From Terriglobia bacterium (lineage in GTDB: Bacteria > Acidobacteriota > Terriglobia > JAJPHL01), in contig JAJPHL010000066.1 in NCBI GenBank assembly GCA_021325275.1, positions 1 to 64,000 of the forward strand: DNA of 64,000 nucleotides, written 5' to 3'. The notes beneath the pieces were generated by a model that saw nothing but the letters and a program-made list of their open reading frames with translations, had not been told where the DNA came from and did no database searches. Both the position numbers and the translations under genes were made by a program. Positions within the stretch are counted from its first letter, which is position 1. Each line of letters starts with the position of its first letter. Positions 36,507 through 47,229 of the stretch are shown piece by piece.

Positions 36507-37952
36507 CTATTGCGGCACTTCCCGAAACGCCAAGACCTTGAAGAGTTGACTGCCGCCGGCGTTGGCAGCCTTGGAAATCCAGCAGGTGTCGTAGAGAATC
36601 CCGTTGCCGCCGCCGCCCGACCAATTCACACTCGGCGATCCGAGACTGCCAAGAAGATTGCCGTTGACGTCGCGCGTCTTCGCGACCAAGATCGCGCCGT
36701 TGTAGGAATTGTTTCCGCCGCCGGCGTTCGTAATCGAGCCTTGGCCGACTACCAACACGACGCCGTTCCATCCGGTGTTGCCGCCGAAGTTGAGCGTGCC
36801 GGTAACGACCAGAATTCCGTAGCCCGTGTTGTTGCCGGCGCAAGTCAAGTTTCCGTTTTGTTGTCCGGTGATCACCGTGATCGTGGGATTCGCAAGCGTG
36901 CCCCACGCAGCCGCCGGCATGCACCCGGAAGGTCCGGCGATTACGTTGTTGGCGACGGCCTGAATGTTGGAAACCAGTGTGTCGAGCCCGCCCACCGTCT
37001 GAAACGACGTCGCTAGTTGCGCCGAGATGTTGGCTGTGCTGGGTGACGCGCCGGCACCCGTGTAATTGCCGGATCGATTGTTGCCGCCATTGCCGTATTG
37101 AAAGAAGTTGCCGGCGTTGGTGACATCGCCGATCGCCGGCACCGACGCTTGATTCGCCGTTCCGCACGCGCCCGTGGACGTCGCGGCATGATCGTTGCCG
37201 TTCACAACGAAGGGAGCCGAGTTCGGTCCGTTGTAGCTGGCGTTAGGACCATCGAGCGTCAGCGCCGAGGGAAAATTCAGCGGTATCAGACTCACCGTGG
37301 CCACTTCGTAAAGCAGCAGCCTGCGCGCGCCGCTCGGCAACACGGCGAGCGCGGTGAGCCGATAGACCGGCAGCCCGGTGGCCGTGAGGTTTTGATTCGA
37401 ACCGTCGTAATAGAGCTGCGTGGTGGAGTCCAGCGTGCCATCGCCGTTGACATCGATTCCGCTGGATTTTTCGGTGTTCGCCGTAATCCGAACCCATTTG
37501 TAGAGCGGTCCCGGCAGCGAAGGGGAACATCCGGCACATCCCGACACCGACGTAACCGTCTTGACGTTTGCACTGGCGACGGCCGAGGCGTCGGTGCCGA
37601 ATTCACCCTTGTACCACTTGTCGTAGTAAGTGTTGGTGGCAGTCGTCGGCGCTACGGTTTCACCCGTCGCGGGATTCAGAATGTAGCGCAGTTGAGCCGG
37701 CGCCAGCGCGCCCGAAATGAATGTCGATGCAAAAACGTTGGGATTGTCGCCGCAGAGGCGTCCGCGTGCTTCTTCCAATCCCGACATCGAAGCATAAAAC
37801 GCTTGCGTCGACGCGCGATAGTTGGCGGAGAGCGTGCGTTCCTCGCCGGTCGACGTGATGAGTCCCAGGGCAATCCCGCTCAGCAGCAGCAAACAGAACA
37901 ACGCGATTAACAGAGCTGCGCCTCGCTGCGAGTTTTTTCGTGCTCGAGTCAT
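36507..37952 (-). CDS. PilX-type minor pilin, last gene of the pilin operon
   Basis: A 481-residue protein with a short basic leader ending QRG and then ALLIALFCLLLLSGIALGLI, the PilX N-terminal hydrophobic helix. As usual for PilX/GspK types, the Glu at mature position 5 is absent. The long soluble part is Gly/Asn-rich (NNRSGNYTG, NAGGGNNSYNGAILV) and much longer than typical PilX. It would be processed by a prepilin peptidase and cap or prime a type IV pilus. The ATG follows the pilW-like stop by 2 nt. No pilus ATPase or PilE gene is nearby. Confidence 0.82.
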   Translation of the reverse strand: MTRARKNSQRGAALLIALFCLLLLSGIALGLITSTGEERTLSANYRASTQAFYASMSGLEEARGRLCGDNPNVFASTFISGALAPAQLRYILNPATGETVAPTTATNTYYDKWYKGEFGTDASAVASANVKTVTSVSGCAGCSPSLPGPLYKWVRITANTEKSSGIDVNGDGTLDSTTQLYYDGSNQNLTATGLPVYRLTALAVLPSGARRLLLYEVATVSLIPLNFPSALTLDGPNASYNGPNSAPFVVNGNDHAATSTGACGTANQASVPAIGDVTNAGNFFQYGNGGNNRSGNYTGAGASPSTANISAQLATSFQTVGGLDTLVSNIQAVANNVIAGPSGCMPAAAWGTLANPTITVITGQQNGNLTCAGNNTGYGILVVTGTLNFGGNTGWNGVVLVVGQGSITNAGGGNNSYNGAILVAKTRDVNGNLLGSLGSPSVNWSGGGGNGILYDTCWISKAANAGGSQLFKVLAFREVPQ

Positions 37953-37954
37953 AT

Positions 37955-38719
37955 TTACTTCCTTGGATTTTCGCGGCGCGCCTGCCCGGTCAGAGCGACC
38001 ATCCGTTTTTGATTCGTGCTGGAATCGGCGAAAGGCGCTTGCAAGATCAGCGTGATGTTCACTTCGCGGATGTTCGTCGGATCGCTGTTGGCGCCCGAGT
38101 CGATCGTGTACGTGAAAACGGGAACGGCAACATTTCCGGGAAAGAGCGTCGGATAGACTTTTTGAATCGCGGTAATCGTGGAAGCGCCGGGATTGTTCAT
38201 GACGTTCTCGACGAACGTGGTCATCACCGCGCCCGTGTCGGTCACCGGATCATGCCCGGCGGCCAGATTCTTCGTCGCCTGTCCGCGTTCCAGTGTCGTT
38301 CCGTTCAGGCGATAGCGCACCCACTCCACCGAAGAACTACTCTGCGGATCGACGTTGGTTTCCACGATGATGTCGAAACCCGTGGGCGACGTGCAGTTGC
38401 TCGCGAGCGTGCATGGCGTGGCAGGATAGTTCGGCATCCACGCAAACGGCATCGCCACCAACTGAGGAGTCGCGTTCCCGGTCGCCGGCGTGAAGAGATT
38501 CGCCGGCGGATATCCGGCGTTGTGGACGTCGCGAATCATCTGATCGAGCGCGGTGCGTCCGCTCTGAAAAGTGTCCTCGAAGCCGGACTCCGCGGTGAAA
38601 CGGGTTTGCGAGATCGAGATCAGGCTGAAAATCGCCGAACCGATCACCAGGAAGATCGCCACGGCGACCAACATTTCCAACAACGAAAACCCCCGTATTG
38701 TTCCTCGCCTATTTCTCAT
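37955..38719 (-). CDS. PilW-type minor pilin
   Basis: A 254-residue pilin-like protein starting at ATG 38719 within an ATGA overlap with the pilV-like gene; a start at 38737 is the alternative. Leader RNRRGTIRG, then mature FSLLEMLVAVAIFLVIGSAI with Glu5 present. The soluble domain contains a short Cys loop (ATPCTLASNC). PilW proteins are minor pilins required for pilus assembly and function. Operon position 4 of 5. Confidence 0.85.
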   Translation of the reverse strand: MRNRRGTIRGFSLLEMLVAVAIFLVIGSAIFSLISISQTRFTAESGFEDTFQSGRTALDQMIRDVHNAGYPPANLFTPATGNATPQLVAMPFAWMPNYPATPCTLASNCTSPTGFDIIVETNVDPQSSSSVEWVRYRLNGTTLERGQATKNLAAGHDPVTDTGAVMTTFVENVMNNPGASTITAIQKVYPTLFPGNVAVPVFTYTIDSGANSDPTNIREVNITLILQAPFADSSTNQKRMVALTGQARRENPRK

Positions 38720-39246
38720 TTGTACTTGTTTTCCCAATCGTCAATGGTCACCGGCGGCACGTACTGCCGCGCATTGGTCTTCCAAACTCCGACGATAAAT
38801 CTCCGAGCGACGGCGTTATTTGTGCTGTCCACCGTCGTGACCACGGCCCAACGCACGTCGTAGGTCGGTTTCATCGGATCGTTGGGATCGCCGCGAGTAA
38901 CGTTGTATCCGGCCACCTTGGCGGCCGAAAAATCCACCTGCACGCTGGTTCCGCGGATGATCACGGCATTGCCGATAATCTTGTTCGGCTGCGTGGGATC
39001 GCCGAGATTGATGGTGTTTCCGTCTGAGTCGGTGAACGAATTCACGGTCATCGGTTGATTGATCATTTGGTCAAGCTCGCGCTGCGCCGTCACCACCGCG
39101 GTGGACTCGAAGCGCGACGTGAGGTTCGACATCACAGCGAACGGAATCGCCTGCATCACCGCGACCGCGCCGCACATGAGGATCAGCGTCGCGATGGTTA
39201 CTTCGATAATCGAAAACCCGCGTTCGTGTTTCTTGATACCGCTCAT
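38716..39246 (-). CDS. PilV-type minor pilin (type IV pilus modification protein)
   Basis: A 176-residue protein with leader IKKHERG and mature FSIIEVTIATLILMCGAVAV, Glu5 present. The region after the helix (ALMSNLTSR-like, AQRELDQM) matches the PilV family, the minor pilins that help nucleate the pilus. ATGA overlaps with the genes on both sides. Operon position 3 of 5. Confidence 0.85.
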   Translation of the reverse strand: MSGIKKHERGFSIIEVTIATLILMCGAVAVMQAIPFAVMSNLTSRFESTAVVTAQRELDQMINQPMTVNSFTDSDGNTINLGDPTQPNKIIGNAVIIRGTSVQVDFSAAKVAGYNVTRGDPNDPMKPTYDVRWAVVTTVDSTNNAVARRFIVGVWKTNARQYVPPVTIDDWENKYK

Positions 39247-39785
39247 GGGAAAATCCAGCTACTTGGAGTGGCGCGCCAAATCTTGGTCTTCCCCATCGCG
39301 TTCACGGCGACGGCGCGATAGCCATCCTTGGGATTGACGTGCGTGAGGTGATAAACGTAAACCGTACTGAAGGTCGGGACGCCGCGCTGATCGAAAGTGA
39401 TCGCTGTGGTTGACGCGGCCGTGGTGGTCGAGGAATATCCCATCGTCGAGTCGAGCGGATAGCCGCTGGTAACCAGCGACACTCCCGCGGGAATATACGC
39501 CACCGGCTCGGTCGACTGCCACGCGCCATCGCCGTTCAGGTCCACGTAGAATGCCGGCTGGCCGTTGATCGTCGTTTGTAGGCAGGAGAGCGGCGTGTTC
39601 GCCTTAATCGCTTCATAGCGCGTGCGGGCGAAGATGTTCGACATGCTCGTCGCGGCGGAATTCAACTGTACGCCGTGCAGAGTGTGCAGAGTTTGCGGAA
39701 CGGCCACCGCGGCCAGTGTGGAAACGCCCACCACTGTGATCAGCAACTCCACTAGGCTCACGCCGCGTTGGTTTTCTGTTCTCAT
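39243..39785 (-). CDS. GspH/FimT-like minor pilin
   Basis: A 180-residue pilin-like protein from ATG 39785 (RTENQRG leader, then VSLVELLITVVGVSTLAAVA with Glu5). The first mature residue is Val rather than Phe. The C-terminal domain is a beta-rich pseudopilin head (AFYVDLNGDGAWQSTEPVAY). A TAATG overlap links it to the upstream gene and an ATGA overlap to the pilV-like gene. Starts further upstream in the frame lie inside the preceding gene and are not used. Confidence 0.83.
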   Translation of the reverse strand: MRTENQRGVSLVELLITVVGVSTLAAVAVPQTLHTLHGVQLNSAATSMSNIFARTRYEAIKANTPLSCLQTTINGQPAFYVDLNGDGAWQSTEPVAYIPAGVSLVTSGYPLDSTMGYSSTTTAASTTAITFDQRGVPTFSTVYVYHLTHVNPKDGYRAVAVNAMGKTKIWRATPSSWIFP

Positions 39786-40333
39786 TACAGCGCGCGCCAA
39801 CCTTGAGGAGTCATCTGCCAAGCCGCCGCCTGAGCGGTGTGAGCGATGCCGACTGCGGTGATCGATTGCACGGGCGTATTCTTGCCGTAGTCGAGATAAA
39901 TGAGTCGTTGCCCGACGGGTCCGAACGCAAAACCGCCGCGCGGATTGAAGACCGCCAACGCGCTCTTCGGCGCGGCGGCATTTGCAGGAATCGCACTCGA
40001 GTTCACCGGGGTGTCGGGCTGCACCGTGGTCAATTCCATTCCGTAGGGAAGCACGAGGCGCGGCTTGCGAGATTGCAAGCGGCCCTTGGGATCCACGTCC
40101 ATCCACACGACAGTCCACGGCCCTTTTTTCTCGACGCGACAAATCACCGGCGTGTCATGCGACATCGAGCGATGACGGGCATCGTCGAGGAATGCGGCGA
40201 GATCGGTGGCGGTAGTGCGAAGCTCGTGGTCGCGCCAGGAGGGTACGGCCTTGCCAGCAGTAATTCCAGCCAGTGTAACGACAGAGAGCAATGCCAACAC
40301 AGTGGTGATGCTAAAGCCTTTAGAATTCGTCAT
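39785..40333 (-). CDS. GspH/FimT-like minor pilin lacking Glu5, first gene of the pilin operon
   Basis: A 182-residue protein from ATG 40333 with AAGGAAC upstream. The leader TNSKG is followed by FSITTVLALLSVVTLAGITA. The processing site is normal, but position 5, almost always Glu in pilins that pair with a neighbour's N-terminus, is Thr. Pilins without Glu5 are typically tip or priming subunits. The head domain (ARHRSMSHDTPVICRVEKKG, AVFNPRGGFAFGPVGQRLIY) fits FimT/GspH. It should set the transcription start for the five-gene operon. Confidence 0.8.
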   Translation of the reverse strand: MTNSKGFSITTVLALLSVVTLAGITAGKAVPSWRDHELRTTATDLAAFLDDARHRSMSHDTPVICRVEKKGPWTVVWMDVDPKGRLQSRKPRLVLPYGMELTTVQPDTPVNSSAIPANAAAPKSALAVFNPRGGFAFGPVGQRLIYLDYGKNTPVQSITAVGIAHTAQAAAWQMTPQGWRAL

Positions 40334-40420
40334 AGTAGTTCCTTCAATTCCCATATCGGCAAGCTACGACGCAAACCGTAGACCTAGTTCTGTAAACAAA
40401 TGAGACCCCTGCGCGATGTT

Positions 40421-40455: not shown

Positions 40456-41544
40456 ATGCATCCGTTGGCAACCCTTCTCCTCGTAGCCGCGACCTCCTTC
40501 ACAGGATCCCTGGAGAGAGTCGGTGCGGGATCGATTTCCATCCGCCTTTCCGATCGCCGGATCATCGATGCGATGCTGCCGAACGTGCCGCCGCTGGAAG
40601 CCGAAGCGATTGCCTCGCAATACAAGTGGGGCGACGTCGTCGACGTGGAATGCACGCCGGTTCCGCCGGTGTGGGAAGAAGGCACGTCGCGATACCAGTC
40701 GTTGCAAGTGAACGGGATGCGCCTGGTGCGCCATCCTTCTACCGAGGAGCTCGCGAAAATGCTCGAATCGATCCCGTTTCGCGAAGGGAAAAACCTGCTC
40801 AAGCGCCCGGAGGCCGCGGCGACCGCGCGTCCGCTCGACGTGGACTTGAATGCGCCCGGCGCGCGCGAGTTGGAGCAGGCGCGGCGCGTAAATCTGGAAT
40901 ACGCCGCGAACATGCCGAACTTTGTGGCCGACGAAATCGCCAAGCGCTATCGCATGAGTCCGCGATCGCAAAGTTGGAGCGACTTCGATGTCGTGGAGTC
41001 GGAGATTACCTTTCGAGGAAATCGAGCGGTTCGCCAGCAAATCCGCCGCAACGGAAAACTGTGGGAGCAGCCGTTCGACGCGCTTCCCGGTTACAAATGG
41101 TATGAAGGATTCGGCCCCGAGATTACGCCGCTGTTCGATCCGAAGTGTCCCACCACGCTCAAGTACGGCGGCCGTTCCGAGTCGCACGGGCGCCCGCTAC
41201 ACGAGTACAAATTCTCGTCGCCGGTGGACGGATGCTTCCCCTACTTCTTTTTCAATTATCAACGCTTCAATCCCGCGCGAACGGGACGCGTCCTCGTCGA
41301 CGGCGCCGCCGGCAACGTGATGCGCCTTGAGGAAGAAGAGAGCGGATTCCCCTCGGAGATCGAGTTTTCCGGCCGCAAAGTGGAGATTGTCTGGGATTAC
41401 GTGAAGATCGGCGAGGAGTCGCACCTGCTACCGGTGCGTTCGCACTTTGAGGTGCGATATTACGACGGCACGCGCTATCGCGTGGAAGTGGAGTACAAGA
41501 ATCACCGCCACTTCGAAGCGTCGTCGCACGTCATTTATCAGTGA
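40456..41544 (+). CDS. Exported protein of unknown function (Acidobacteria-type)
   Basis: A 362-residue protein with a short hydrophobic N-terminus (LATLLLVAATSFTGSLE), probably a signal peptide. The first 130 residues resemble a small beta-domain. The rest contains NLEYAANMPNFVADEIAKRY, then VVESEITFRGNRAVRQQIR, LPGYKWYEGFGPEITPLF and paired Cys (DPKCPT, DGCFPYFFF). This pattern looks like the exported proteins at 53588 and 54948, which have a related opening (LPRYMCTQTIDR). Family function is not known. The 3' end overlaps the convergent gene by 14 bp. Expression is predicted to be leaderless from a good promoter. Confidence 0.7.
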   Translation: MHPLATLLLVAATSFTGSLERVGAGSISIRLSDRRIIDAMLPNVPPLEAEAIASQYKWGDVVDVECTPVPPVWEEGTSRYQSLQVNGMRLVRHPSTEELAKMLESIPFREGKNLLKRPEAAATARPLDVDLNAPGARELEQARRVNLEYAANMPNFVADEIAKRYRMSPRSQSWSDFDVVESEITFRGNRAVRQQIRRNGKLWEQPFDALPGYKWYEGFGPEITPLFDPKCPTTLKYGGRSESHGRPLHEYKFSSPVDGCFPYFFFNYQRFNPARTGRVLVDGAAGNVMRLEEEESGFPSEIEFSGRKVEIVWDYVKIGEESHLLPVRSHFEVRYYDGTRYRVEVEYKNHRHFEASSHVIYQ

Positions 41545-42619
41545 CAAATTTCTCGAGCACGAAAACAAAGTGCTGTTCGGGCGGCGCGCCCTCGGCCGTC
41601 ATCGCTGCAAAGTTGATCGAGCGCGCGTCTTTCACCGCGGCGTCGCTGTTGGGATCCGACGGCTGCAAGGAATGAGCCTCGACGAGTTGTCCTGCCGAAT
41701 TCACCAGGCCGAAAACACACACCGGCCGCACGATTGCCGCCGAGGTGGAACCGCCGGGAATGATTCGGGTGATTCGCTGCAACGATGCCATGGCCGGCAT
41801 CTGCGCCGACATCATTCGGGTGGTGGGAACGAAGAGACTTTCCTCGACGGACGCTCCTCCCTCGAGACTCTCGACCACGATCTTGGAAACCACTCGACCA
41901 CCTTCGCTCACGGTGACGCTGCCCGGCATCCGGCGATCGCCCAATCGAACAGCGTTCGAATAATCGTAAACGACATAGCGTCCCGGCGCGTCGGAATGGA
42001 GCATCAGCAATCCCGATTGGGTGTCGATGCAATCCTCGCTCTCTTCCCATCCACGCCCGCTCGCGGGATTCTGCACGTTGCGCGCGTGCGCCAGCAAAAT
42101 GCAGGTGACATCTAGGCCGCGAAAGTTAGCGGAGAAGGTGCGAATCGATCCGCTGCCCGCGTAGGAAACGGACGGCAGCGGATTGTAGAGTACCGCGCGC
42201 GCCTCTTGCAGTCGCAACGGCACACCGGATATGGAGGCCTCGGCGTACGTCTCTTTCGGCGCAAAAATTCCGGCGGCAGAATAGCCGGCGGAAGATTGGG
42301 CGGTCCAATGGAGTCCGCGCCCGGGGACAAAACGATCTTCCATGGTCCAAGCGCCATCGAAGTTTGTCGCCCCGCGCGAGTCCACCGCGAAGCGAACCTT
42401 GAGATCCCACGCTTGACCCGCATTTCGCAATTGATAATTGCTGCGGGCGCGCTCCAAAAGTTGAAGCGCCGAGGCACGGACCGGCGTGCCGGCCGTTTGA
42501 ATCGGCCCGACGGCTAGTTCCAGCGGATCGGCCGGTACAGACGCAATCGCGAGTGCTTGTCCGAAAGCGGCTGCGCTTAGCGTCAAGCACAACATTCCGT
42601 ATTTCAATCCGGATGTCAT
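41531..42619 (-). CDS. Exported protein with TonB-like C-terminal domain
   Basis: A 362-residue protein with a signal peptide (YGMLCLTLSAAAFGQALA) and GAGGTG before the ATG. The middle contains SNYQLRNAGQAWDLKVRFAV and a Cys pair (LDVTCILLAHA, ESEDCIDTQSG). The C-terminal 80 residues read VRPVCVFGLVNSAGQLVEAH and DPNSDAAVKDARSINFA, resembling the TonB C-terminal fold often found in Acidobacteria exported proteins without a TonB anchor. It is not a classical TonB, because no Pro-rich linker or membrane anchor is visible. The exact role is unknown. Confidence 0.65.
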   Translation of the reverse strand: MTSGLKYGMLCLTLSAAAFGQALAIASVPADPLELAVGPIQTAGTPVRASALQLLERARSNYQLRNAGQAWDLKVRFAVDSRGATNFDGAWTMEDRFVPGRGLHWTAQSSAGYSAAGIFAPKETYAEASISGVPLRLQEARAVLYNPLPSVSYAGSGSIRTFSANFRGLDVTCILLAHARNVQNPASGRGWEESEDCIDTQSGLLMLHSDAPGRYVVYDYSNAVRLGDRRMPGSVTVSEGGRVVSKIVVESLEGGASVEESLFVPTTRMMSAQMPAMASLQRITRIIPGGSTSAAIVRPVCVFGLVNSAGQLVEAHSLQPSDPNSDAAVKDARSINFAAMTAEGAPPEQHFVFVLEKFVTDK

Positions 42620-42637: not shown

Positions 42638-43807
42638 CTAGAGACCGCCGTCACCACCGTCGCCGCCTCCGTCACCGCCGCCATCGCCGCCGCCGTCACC
42701 GGTGCCGCCGCCGTCGCTGCCGCCGTCACCCATCGAGCCGCCGTCGCCGGTCGAGCCGCCATCGCCCATCGATCCCCCGTCGCCGGTCGAGCCGCCATCG
42801 CCGATGCCGGTGCTGCCGTCGCCGGGCATGCCGGCATTGTCGAAAGCGACGCATCCTTGCGTGGACGACGCGAATGAACCTTGCAGCGAAAGCAGTAAGT
42901 TCGGCTGCGTCGGCAATCCGCCGACGTAAGCTTGAATCGAAACGTCGCCGACTCCGATTCCCGGCGGAATCACAACATTCACTTGATAGAGGCCGGCGGC
43001 GGAGAGTCCAACGAACGAGGGACTCACAACAACGCCGTTGATCGTGAGGCTGAACGGCTCGGTGATGGGCGCGGCACCCGAAAACAATTGGCCCGACTTC
43101 ACCACAGGACTCGTTGGTCCGAAACCGACGCCGAACAGTTCCACGATATCGCCGGCTTTCGCGGCCACCGATGCAAAGCCAAAGCAGTTTCCGGTAGGTC
43201 CCAAAATGTCGTACGATCCGTTGCCGAACGCGCCCGTGCCGTTCCGCATGATGATGGCAGCCACGTGCCGCGAGTCGCGCAGCAGGAACGCCGGCGAAGC
43301 AGGGTTCAGTTTCACCTGCGCCGTCGCTTGACCGCCGCTCGTGGTGACGACGACCTGCACCATACCCAACGCGGTGTCATCGGGCGCCTGCAAATTGATT
43401 TGCGTGGGGCTTACATAAGAAAGATACGCGGCTCTTCCGTTGATCGTGACACTGGTGCCGCCCATCTGCGTAGGAAAATCACCGTTCCAGAAAGCTGTGG
43501 CCCCGGCGAGGTTCGTACCGAAAATCGATACCCACTCACCCGGCTGGATCATGTTCGTGGTGCTATACACGGGGACCACGCCACCCGCGTTGATCACAGG
43601 ACCGCTCGCCATAGCCGCAACATGATGAGAAGTGGGGCCGGCCATCGACGCACGAACCGCACGAATGACGGGAGCACTTTGGGGAACTTGGTGAGGAAGC
43701 GGAGCCGCCGTGAGAGAGAAGGCGGAACTGGTGATCGCAGCGTAGAGCGGCCACTGGCTGGCCCTCGCGAGCCGTGCTTCAAGGCGGTTTTTTCTCGCCC
43801 TGCTCAT
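42638..43807 (-). CDS. TIGR03437-domain protein with long Gly/Asp-rich tail
   Basis: A 389-residue protein preceded by AGGAGGT. After a basic N-terminus and a signal-like helix (LYAAITSSAFSLTAA), residues about 70-320 form one TIGR03437 domain (STTNMIQPGEWVSIFGTNLA, SPTQINLQAPDD, LSAAGLYQVNVVIPPG). The last 65 or so residues are a GDGGSTGDGGSM-type repeat that becomes GDGGGDGGG, low in complexity and acidic. Asp/Gly-rich repeats of this kind may bind calcium, which is inference. The fold and tail both suggest an extracellular or surface role. Confidence 0.85.
   Translation of the reverse strand: MSRARKNRLEARLARASQWPLYAAITSSAFSLTAAPLPHQVPQSAPVIRAVRASMAGPTSHHVAAMASGPVINAGGVVPVYSTTNMIQPGEWVSIFGTNLAGATAFWNGDFPTQMGGTSVTINGRAAYLSYVSPTQINLQAPDDTALGMVQVVVTTSGGQATAQVKLNPASPAFLLRDSRHVAAIIMRNGTGAFGNGSYDILGPTGNCFGFASVAAKAGDIVELFGVGFGPTSPVVKSGQLFSGAAPITEPFSLTINGVVVSPSFVGLSAAGLYQVNVVIPPGIGVGDVSIQAYVGGLPTQPNLLLSLQGSFASSTQGCVAFDNAGMPGDGSTGIGDGGSTGDGGSMGDGGSTGDGGSMGDGGSDGGGTGDGGGDGGGDGGGDGGDGGL
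42641..42830. repeat. Low-complexity Gly-Asp-rich coding repeat
   Basis: The plus strand reads as irregular runs of GCCGCCGTCACC and GCCGCCATCGCC units. On the minus strand these encode GDGG/STGDGGS repeats at the end of the TIGR03437 gene. Copy number in such tracts is often variable between strains. Confidence 0.8.
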
Positions 43808-43833: not shown

Positions 43834-46101
43834 CTATATCTTTTGATCGGCCTTGTCAATATCTTTTGATCGCTTCAGGGCAAAAAGTTCGTTAAGATAG
43901 GTTAAGGCGTAGAAATCGCCGGTTTCAACGTTATAGGTAAGCGCGTTGGTCACTGCGTCGGGGAGCTGGTGGGTCCCGGTGATTTCGTCGGTGACGCGAT
44001 CGATTTCATACACGATGCCGTTGCAAGCGCCAAAATAAATGCGCCCTTCGAGCAATCGCGGCGGACCAAACACCTTCGATGCCGCGAAAATCTTGCGTTT
44101 CAGCACGCGCCGCGCGAGGTCGAGCACATAAAGATATTTGTCCGTTGATCCAACGTACGCTTTATCGTCGACAACCAGCGGCACCGTGTAAATCGTGTTG
44201 TCCGTTTTCAACGACCACACTTCCCTGCCCGTCTCCACGTCGATCACATAGATGCAGCCGTCGGCACAACCGGTGACGACATGTCCGCGCTGCACATCAA
44301 ACGCCGGCGCGTGGCGAATCGACCCTTTGGTTTCGAAGCGCCACTTCACGCCACCTGTCGATGCGTCAAAAAGCCACATCTCGTTGTCGTTGCTGCCGCA
44401 CGCGACTAATTGACGCTCCGGCCAATACGCGGGAGACGCATGGGTGTAGCGTTTCGTCATGTGCTCCCAAACTTTTTCGCCGGAGTCCATGCGCAGCGCG
44501 GCGATGCTGCCGCGTTTTCCCTCCACCGCGAACTCCAGGCCGATAAAGAGCATGCCCAACTCCGGGGCGAGAGCAGGAGAGGACCCGACCCAATCGGCGC
44601 CGATAAATCGCCACAGTTCGCATCCGGTTTCGGCATCAAGGCAATAAACGTTGCCATCGTAACTGCCGAAATAGACTTTTCCTTCACGCAACGCGGGACT
44701 CGACCAGAGATTCTTGTGTCCCTTGGAGTGAACCGTGAATTTCCAGACAGGCGTCCCGTCCCGAGCATCGAGGCACCAGAAGATTCCGGAATCGCTGCCG
44801 AAATAGACGCGCTTTCCGTCGGTGGCCGGAAAGGATTTCGGAACGCGATGAAAGAAATTAGGATCGGGCGAAGCGAAGCGCCAGCGATTTTCGAACGTCG
44901 CCAGGGGCCGCGGCGCCGCTTTCTCCACGGAGAGCCCAAATTCATCGAGACGAAACGCCGCGCGAACGGGAATCGCGCGCCTTGCTCGCCACAGCCGGCC
45001 CTCGGCGCTCTCGTAATCGATCAGCACGAACACCGACGAAATCGCTTGACCTGACTGCTCCAGCACCACGCGAGCTTTTTCCATGCTGCGTCCGGAATTC
45101 AGCAGATCGTCGACCATCACGATTGGCTCGGGCGTCAGCGATCCTTCGATGGAGCCGCCGGCGCCGTAGGTCTTGCGCTCCTTGCGAATCAAAAAACCGT
45201 TCACGGGTGTGCCTCGCCCGAGCGACTTCAGTAGAATCGCCGACAGCAGCGGAATCGCGGCGGTTTCAAGCGCACCCACTTGAAACGGCAGCATTCCGGC
45301 ACACTCCTGCCAGAAAAGTTCGGCGGCGGCGTCAAGAAGTCTCGCATCCATGAAAACGCGCCGCAGATCGATGAGCCAATCGTAGTTGTTTCCGCTGGGA
45401 GAAATCAGGCGTTGCTTCTCGCCTCGCAGAATCGCGCGCTCGCGAATCGCCGACGCGATCAGATCGCGCGGAGAAGAAGCCGGCGAAGCCGAAGGCGGCG
45501 CGGGCTTCGGAGACTTCACAGCCGCCGTCGCCGGCAAAAGAATCGCGTTCACCGCGACGTCGCGGTATTCTTCCGGCAGCAGATCGAAAATGTAGTGGAT
45601 GCGCCACTGGTCCGATTCGTTGTAAGCCTCGTGATACTGCTTGTTGTCGAACCACCACAGTTCGCCTTCCTTCATGCGCACCGTTTCGCCGCCGCTCATC
45701 AGCACGCTTCCGGTGGCGCTTCGCAGCACCAAATGAAAGCGGTCGCGCAAAAAGTAATACGATCCCTGATCGATGTGGCGGAAAACCTGGGTCTGCGGCT
45801 TCAATCGCACGATCGTGGCGCGAGAAAGATGGCAATGCATTTCCTGTGCGAACTCGGTCATGAACGCCAACGCTTTGGGAAAGGATTGCGCCACCGGAGT
45901 GAGCCGGCATTCCTGATTCTCGTTGACCGGCAAGTCGGGCCGCGGAACCGCGGAGCTCAAGAAAATGGTATTGGTATCGCGCTGAACGCGAATCTTCTCC
46001 TGGCGGCTGGTGTCGATCAGCCACGCTTGTTCGTTGGAATCGATTTCCGCCAGCAGCGGAGCCACATCGACGCCGGAACGGATGAGTTTGAAGTAGTTCA
46101 A
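43834..46101 (-). CDS. Three-domain fusion: Asp/Asn beta-hydroxylase, OPRT-like phosphoribosyltransferase, PQQ-type propeller
   Basis: A 755-residue protein from TTG 46101 (TAAGG 7 nt upstream). Residues 1-180 are an aspartyl/asparaginyl beta-hydroxylase domain with the iron facial triad visible: H109 and D111 (FRHIDQGSYY), H157 (QYHEAYNES) and R167 for 2-oxoglutarate. A Pro/Ala linker follows at about 195-212. Residues 212-390 are an orotate-phosphoribosyltransferase-like domain with LIRKERKTYGAGGSIEG (304-320) and the PRPP loop IVMVDDLLNSGRS (327-339). From about 405 to 745 it is a PQQ-type beta-propeller with repeats such as GKVYFGSYDGNVYCLDAETG. It has no signal peptide, so it is cytoplasmic. 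The joint function is unknown; hydroxylation plus ribosylation of a peptide is one possibility. It starts 9 nt after the neighbouring propeller gene ends. Confidence 0.85.
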   Translation of the reverse strand: MNYFKLIRSGVDVAPLLAEIDSNEQAWLIDTSRQEKIRVQRDTNTIFLSSAVPRPDLPVNENQECRLTPVAQSFPKALAFMTEFAQEMHCHLSRATIVRLKPQTQVFRHIDQGSYYFLRDRFHLVLRSATGSVLMSGGETVRMKEGELWWFDNKQYHEAYNESDQWRIHYIFDLLPEEYRDVAVNAILLPATAAVKSPKPAPPSASPASSPRDLIASAIRERAILRGEKQRLISPSGNNYDWLIDLRRVFMDARLLDAAAELFWQECAGMLPFQVGALETAAIPLLSAILLKSLGRGTPVNGFLIRKERKTYGAGGSIEGSLTPEPIVMVDDLLNSGRSMEKARVVLEQSGQAISSVFVLIDYESAEGRLWRARRAIPVRAAFRLDEFGLSVEKAAPRPLATFENRWRFASPDPNFFHRVPKSFPATDGKRVYFGSDSGIFWCLDARDGTPVWKFTVHSKGHKNLWSSPALREGKVYFGSYDGNVYCLDAETGCELWRFIGADWVGSSPALAPELGMLFIGLEFAVEGKRGSIAALRMDSGEKVWEHMTKRYTHASPAYWPERQLVACGSNDNEMWLFDASTGGVKWRFETKGSIRHAPAFDVQRGHVVTGCADGCIYVIDVETGREVWSLKTDNTIYTVPLVVDDKAYVGSTDKYLYVLDLARRVLKRKIFAASKVFGPPRLLEGRIYFGACNGIVYEIDRVTDEITGTHQLPDAVTNALTYNVETGDFYALTYLNELFALKRSKDIDKADQKI

Positions 46102-46110
46102 CGGAAAACC

Positions 46111-47229
46111 TTAGTAATCGACGGCGTTGGCGCGCACTCCCATCCCAAAGTCGCTGTAATAGTCGCCGGCCTCGTCGACCCTTTGCAATCCGCTGCCGAC
46201 CCAATCGCGCGAGATGTGCGCGAGTTGGCACGTGCTCAGTTCGGTGACATACCAGCCGTGCTTCGCCGGAAGCACGCGATGACTCTTACACGCCACGGTG
46301 GGAAGCGCAGCCGAGGCCTCGGTGTTCACAGCGGAAAACGAGGGATCGAACGTCACGCGAATCACGGCGTCGATGGTGGATGGAGAAACGATGGATGACG
46401 CGAGCAGCAGCAAGCTCGGCGTTTGTTCCGGCTCCCCGCATTCCCAAGCGAGATGCAGCAGTCCCGCGTTTTTCCACGCGCTCGCCGCGAGATGATACCA
46501 ATCGATAGTGGGTGTGCCCGTCTTATCGACGCGAATCCGCCCGAAAGTCCCCGTGCCGGACGCTCCGCCGATCAGCACGAACCACACATTGCCGTCGGGA
46601 CCTGCGACCATGCCTACCGGTGTCGAACCCATATTCGCGGGAATCGCGATTTGTCCCGTTTCGCCCTTGGTTGGATTGATCCACATGATGTTGGAAGAAG
46701 AATCCTCGGTCGCGAAGATCAGTCCTCCGCTCTTGTGCACCGCCGTAAAGATCGGCCGCCGTAAAGCGGGATACACGGCGAACGGCTGCGCGGCCGCGGT
46801 ATCGATCCGGACAACCTGACATCCATCTTTCACGGAAACCCAAAGCGTCGACCCGTCTTCGATGACTCCATGCGGTCCATGCGCCGCGACCGGCAGTGTG
46901 TACGTTTTCTTGACAACCGGAGCGCTGTCGACGTTTTTTGCGACGGGATCGATCAGGACGATTTGCGAAGTGAATTGCAGCGTGGCCCAAACCATTCCGG
47001 GATGTTCACGCGACGCAAAGAGTCCGTGGAGACCGTCGCCCGGATTCCCGATGAGATGCGCGGCGGCGCGCACGGGCGCCCCGGTGGCGGGATCAAGCGA
47101 CACTTTGACGAGTTTGCTGTTGGTCTGTTGAGAAATCACCAGCATGTTAGCGCCGGGAATCTCCACAATCTCGTGAGTCTGCGCCGCGGCAGGCAACGGG
47201 TATTCGCGAACCAGTTTGGTTGGGGTCAT
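46111..47229 (-). CDS. Vgb/SMP-30-like beta-propeller protein, partner of the three-domain fusion
   Basis: A 372-residue protein with no signal peptide. Repeated strands such as HEIVEIPGANMLVISQQTNS, GPHGVIEDGSTLWVSVKDG and PVGMVAGPDGNVWFVLIGG are typical of virginiamycin-B-lyase-like or SMP-30-type propellers. No lyase metal ligands can be confirmed by eye, and antibiotic inactivation should not be assumed. Its stop is 9 nt from the start of the three-domain fusion, so both are made from one transcript and may form a complex. A TACAAT box 6 nt before the ATG predicts a leaderless mRNA. Confidence 0.78.
   Translation of the reverse strand: MTPTKLVREYPLPAAAQTHEIVEIPGANMLVISQQTNSKLVKVSLDPATGAPVRAAAHLIGNPGDGLHGLFASREHPGMVWATLQFTSQIVLIDPVAKNVDSAPVVKKTYTLPVAAHGPHGVIEDGSTLWVSVKDGCQVVRIDTAAAQPFAVYPALRRPIFTAVHKSGGLIFATEDSSSNIMWINPTKGETGQIAIPANMGSTPVGMVAGPDGNVWFVLIGGASGTGTFGRIRVDKTGTPTIDWYHLAASAWKNAGLLHLAWECGEPEQTPSLLLLASSIVSPSTIDAVIRVTFDPSFSAVNTEASAALPTVACKSHRVLPAKHGWYVTELSTCQLAHISRDWVGSGLQRVDEAGDYYSDFGMGVRANAVDY

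Follow-up and report, generated by a model that had tools for sequence, protein, structure and literature searches.

The 64,000-nucleotide stretch analysed here (the window) encodes a protein in which a hydroxylase domain, an orotate phosphoribosyltransferase (OPRT)-like PRTase domain and a propeller are joined in one chain, followed by the gene of a partner protein with a Gly/Asp tail (Table 1). Since every one of the ten loci found for its subfamily pairs the hydroxylase with such a tail or tract, the tail is the probable target of the enzyme, and the best overall explanation, to which we give about an even chance, is that the fusion would be a dedicated tailoring enzyme for the adjoining secreted Gly/Asp-repeat protein, with the partner tail as its putative substrate.

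Table 1. Coordinates of features in the window and on related contigs (contig handle before the colon).
Feature	Coordinates	Strand	Basis or content
Three-domain fusion protein, 755 aa, TTG start	43834..46101	-	ORF call and profile matches
Hydroxylase domain, residues 1-190	45532..46101	-	PF05118, 1.9e-16; HxD at 45769-45777
OPRT-like PRTase domain, residues 210-395	44917..45474	-	TIGR00336, 3.9e-17; PDB OPRTs, 5.8e-11
PRPP motif of the PRTase domain	45082-45123	-	
Flexible loop of the PRTase domain	45142-45186	-	
BamB-type propeller, residues 403-745	43867..44895	-	PF13570, 1.6e-48; TM-score to Cake8
Vgb-lyase-like propeller upstream of the fusion	46111..47229	-	Profile matches; 9 bp from the fusion
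Partner with a TIG module, a signal-like N-terminus and a Gly/Asp tail; proposed substrate	42638..43807	-	
Gly/Asp tail of 53 residues, GDGGSTGDGGSM...DGGGDGGGDGGDGG	42644..42802	-	Partner C-terminus
Third gene, 362 aa, exported-looking N-terminus	41531..42619	-	52% identity to the same-position gene in L039
TPR-repeat protein, 1729 aa	48333-53522	+	Central Peptidase_C39-like domain (PF13529, 2.3e-5)
Several ORFs with prepilin-like N-termini	36507-40354	-	By eye
Toroid-like ORF	L043:9344-11137	-	
Toroid-like ORF	L044:7105-9129		
Toroid-like ORF	L145:5719-7461		
Toroid-like ORF	L147:1247-2812		
Toroid-like ORF	L150:7555-9297		
TonB-dependent-receptor-like ORF	L146:8175-10511	-	By eye
Granulicella tract-bearing ORF	L040:7353-8243	-	
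Sulfitobacter plasmid hydroxylase	L111:9001-9573		47% identity

The union of the hydroxylase, PRTase-like and propeller domains in one ORF, as claimed in the earlier note, is real and due neither to chance nor to assembly. PF05118, TIGR00336 (below its curated cut-off) and PF13570 all match, and an assembly error is excluded by a second genome: a contig from a Bryobacteraceae MAG (L039) encodes the identical three-way architecture, with residues 1-745 at 75% identity. The fusion is under purifying selection: comparison of the window with L039 gives a Ka/Ks of 0.12 in the hydroxylase and of 0.20 in the PRTase domain; for the propeller the ratio is limited by saturated synonymous sites. It is also rare, the PRTase-propeller part being found in two of 399 genomes of the class, that of the window and Granulicella rosea. 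In the AlphaFold model (mean pLDDT 85.6) each domain is confidently folded and the linker at residues 184-206 is disordered, but the placement of the domains relative to each other is not reliable because pTM is 0.58. The N-terminus has neither signal peptide nor lipobox, and the protein looks cytoplasmic. PADLOC gave no match that would make it part of a defence system. A literature text search, with subscription papers mostly outside its scope, returned no match for DUF6065, for Gly-Asp repeats together with hydroxylases, or for the fusion, and this silence is weak evidence of novelty.

By profile and residues, the N-terminal domain is a member of the Asp_Arg_Hydrox family (PF05118; best stretch residues 65-174, 60.8 bits against a gathering score of 22.6), for which beta-hydroxylation of Asp or Asn in a polypeptide is predicted. 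Human AspH was matched at 6.5e-4 (phmmer against PDB), and the metal-binding pair H109/H157 and the 2-oxoglutarate-binding R167, which follows the second His, align with it. None of the 22 aligned hydroxylases departs from H109-x-D111, H157, R121 or R167; judged from this alignment, the active-site residues are intact. By analogy with AspH, Asp beta-hydroxylation is expected. The two differ in that AspH has Gly at the position of D111, which here completes an HxD...H triad, and that AspH goes with EGF-like domains, whereas the bacterial fusion is linked to Gly/Asp repeats and joined to a PRTase and a propeller. PF05118 also includes members other than Asp hydroxylases, such as LpxO and further non-peptide hydroxylases. 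Distant PF05118 hydroxylases are encoded on 56 IMG/VR contigs (L055-L110) and in several phage genomes.

The middle domain has the fold of a type I PRTase, as indicated by the PRPP-binding motif VMVDDLLNSGRS with its acidic pair D331-D332, and resembles PyrE in fold by sequence, in this motif and in a K-x-x-K-x-[HY]-G-like loop. It matches TIGR00336 (NCBIfam pyrE) at residues 233-370 with 62.5 bits, below the curated cut-off of 106.8, phmmer finds OPRTs in PDB at 5.8e-11, and the Pfam Pribosyltran profile reaches only E 0.12 on this region. Two observations set it apart from PyrE besides its place inside a fusion: the cut-off is not reached, and the Arg of the OPRT 'DR' pair, after the last-strand Asp, is replaced by Tyr (window and L039) or Phe (Granulicella), while most aligned OPRTs have Arg. 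This Arg contacts orotate in known OPRT structures, and its loss makes orotate an improbable substrate of the domain. The key residues that the earlier note had listed for all three parts were recovered as far as the HxD...H site, the Arg, the PRPP motif and the propeller are concerned, with the OPRT signature only partly kept: the loop still has K310 and G313, but its first Lys, K307, is K, N or R across the three family members. The same loss of Arg, and the PRTase-propeller without hydroxylase in Granulicella, leave the proposed multi-step chemistry with PRPP conjectural, and a nucleobase substrate found no support. The domain may add phosphoribose or merely sense PRPP. A non-catalytic PRPP sensor, making the three domains a hydroxylase regulated by the PRPP level, is a possible if not a favoured reading; it fits the loss of the Arg with retention of the PRPP motif and has precedents among PRTase folds that serve as regulators (PyrR, PurR), but K310 and G313 are still present and the Granulicella protein has PRTase and propeller without the hydroxylase. 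Such sensing can be combined with a tail-tailoring role of the fusion.

The C-terminal domain is an eight-bladed propeller of the kind shared by BamB and BAAT-type (ACSF4) proteins. Besides PF13570 it matches PF13360 (1.9e-32), and Foldseek placed it close to the designed eight-bladed Cake8 (TM-score 0.91, target length) and to BamB; Foldseek was uninformative on the other two domains because propellers filled its match list. The earlier label of a PQQ propeller found no support, either as a PQQ site or as a match to the PQQ enzyme model TIGR03075, which gave 57.8 bits against a cut-off of 480; by the profiles tested, a PQQ enzyme is unsupported. The domain differs from BamB-type proteins as the C-terminal part of a cytoplasmic-looking fusion. 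The Vgb-like propeller upstream is probably co-transcribed with the fusion in the window, as had been proposed, but in L039 a different gene occupies that position, which argues against a conserved role in the system.

The partner, which the earlier note did not mention, lies just beyond the fusion gene; its start is 26 bp downstream and is preceded by an AGGAGG site. It contains a TIG module (PF01833, 9.3e-5), and its counterpart at the same place in L039 (60% identity) has a Gly/Asp tail too. A search with the partner against the window's genome gave 67 TIG-module matches, itself counted. The exact pattern DGGDGGDG has no occurrence in this genome, because the partner tail is of the DGGG type; scanned with DGGGDGG instead, the 6.86-Mb genome contains the tract solely in the partner tail. 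The third gene is likewise conserved, a homolog following the partner in L039, and its window copy has no Pfam match.

Hydroxylases about 45-50% identical to that of the window were found in two other Acidobacteriota families, giving ten subfamily loci (window, L039, G184, G310, G322, two in G342, two in G400, and G401). The Gly/Asp tract lies in the same ORF at six of them, with the hydroxylase in frame behind it, and within 160 bp at the other four, in an adjacent gene at the G322 locus and one G400 locus, so that in-frame fusion, tandem and convergent arrangements are all represented. Three of the loci (both from G400, and G401) came from a family search made after the hypothesis had been formed, and all have the tract. 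Conversely, at least 30 (DG)4 hits, counted as the DNA pattern (GAYGGN)4, occur in four of 396 genomes of the phylum, and these are exactly the four other hydroxylase carriers in that set, G184, G310, G322 and G342; the next-highest counts are 21 (G152) and 7 (G294). In G342, two copies of the hydroxylase go with two arrays. The hypergeometric probability of this co-occurrence, about 1e-9, is uncorrected for relatedness and overstates independence: the independent events are fewer because G184, G310 and G342 share one genus, with about four lineages in all. Even at a looser threshold, no tract turned up in a further 93 loci (666 kb), among them those of distant hydroxylases, of PRTases and of propellers. 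The DNA units of long tracts vary solely at third codon positions (80 differences in 87 units at the G400 locus L146, one giving Asp to Glu), an argument that rests on tract length and variation jointly, since only unbroken DG units counted as a tract and this definition itself favours variation at third positions. The short G152 tract consists of nine identical units with no such variation, as a simple DNA repeat would. A TonB-dependent-receptor-like ORF adjoins the second G400 hydroxylase with its Gly-Asp gene.

If the fusion is a tailoring enzyme, its Fe(II)/2-oxoglutarate domain would hydroxylate the beta-carbon of tail Asp residues in the cytoplasm before export, a step that we consider to have at least an even chance. 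On weaker grounds, the propeller would bind the tail or position the domains, the PRTase would use PRPP to attach phosphoribose to the tail or gate the reaction by PRPP sensing, and the exported tail would form a dense hydroxy-acid and carboxylate polymer binding metal or mineral. The earlier proposal of a peptide substrate thus has strong circumstantial support from the Gly/Asp linkage, its multi-step part being unproven. Several points weaken the tail as substrate: a hydroxylase homolog on a Sulfitobacter conjugative plasmid, adjoining a TIGR02466 protein, has no Gly/Asp tract nearby and possibly acts on another substrate; Granulicella has a neighbour with a DGGG tract but no hydroxylase; short (GD)n tracts exist without hydroxylase in G152 and G294; and not all PF05118 members hydroxylate Asp. 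At the six in-frame ORFs, which have signal-like N-termini (among them the f49 genus), export would in addition separate the enzyme from 2-oxoglutarate. The in-frame ORFs, the Sulfitobacter homolog and Granulicella weigh most among these objections.

An alternative is a single system in which the tail is no substrate but only a metal binder or surface feature, while the hydroxylase makes or modifies some other protein or a small molecule. The non-peptide hydroxylases of PF05118, the Sulfitobacter homolog and the fact that small molecules are the usual PRTase targets favour this, but the single ORFs combining tract and hydroxylase, and the failure of any other partner to recur in all lineages at the subfamily loci, make it unlikely in our judgement. 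That a surface repeat gene and a hydroxylase merely travel on one mobile cassette with no mutual action would agree with the patchy distribution and the small number of lineages, but is very doubtful given that the association persists in three arrangements and is conserved under purifying selection in two Bryobacterales genomes.

The tail-tailoring explanation recalls the tailoring of RiPPs, among which cinnamycin has a hydroxylase acting on Asp, in that an enzyme gene lies beside a repetitive, ribosomally made candidate substrate. It differs in that this candidate, in place of a short precursor, is a tailed secreted protein of full size, and a conserved protease or transporter was not seen at the loci. 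In its fullest form, poly(Gly-Asp) tails of secreted proteins would be beta-hydroxylated and then phosphoribosylated by one enzyme, yielding a decorated surface polymer able to bind metal or mineral and amounting to a new protein-tail modification system; this we regard as quite improbable. Were the tail a target of the PRTase as well, phosphoribosylation of a protein at the expense of PRPP would be a new kind of modification. For one subfamily of bacterial Asp-hydroxylases the analysis thus names a likely substrate class, and it connects these enzymes with the long Gly/Asp tracts that some secreted proteins bear.

Several neighbouring genes deserve mention. At five Gly-Asp loci of two families, the gene of an alpha/alpha-toroid-like protein converges on that of the hydroxylase; its f49/G322 representative has no Pfam or PDB sequence match, its low-confidence model (pLDDT 55) matched no fold at E<0.001 (nearest GH76-like), and with its absence from the second G400 locus we did not retain it as part of the system. 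In Granulicella rosea, the PRTase-propeller gene follows a DUF6065 gene, from which an ORF with a signal-like N-terminus, CPSCPGCPG/CPAPPS repeats and a DGGGDGGGDGGG tract diverges. In the window, the TPR-repeat protein gene lies upstream of the operon and divergent from it, and the ORFs with prepilin-like N-termini (GFSLLEM, GFSIIEV, GVSLVEL) probably form a type IV minor-pilin cluster.
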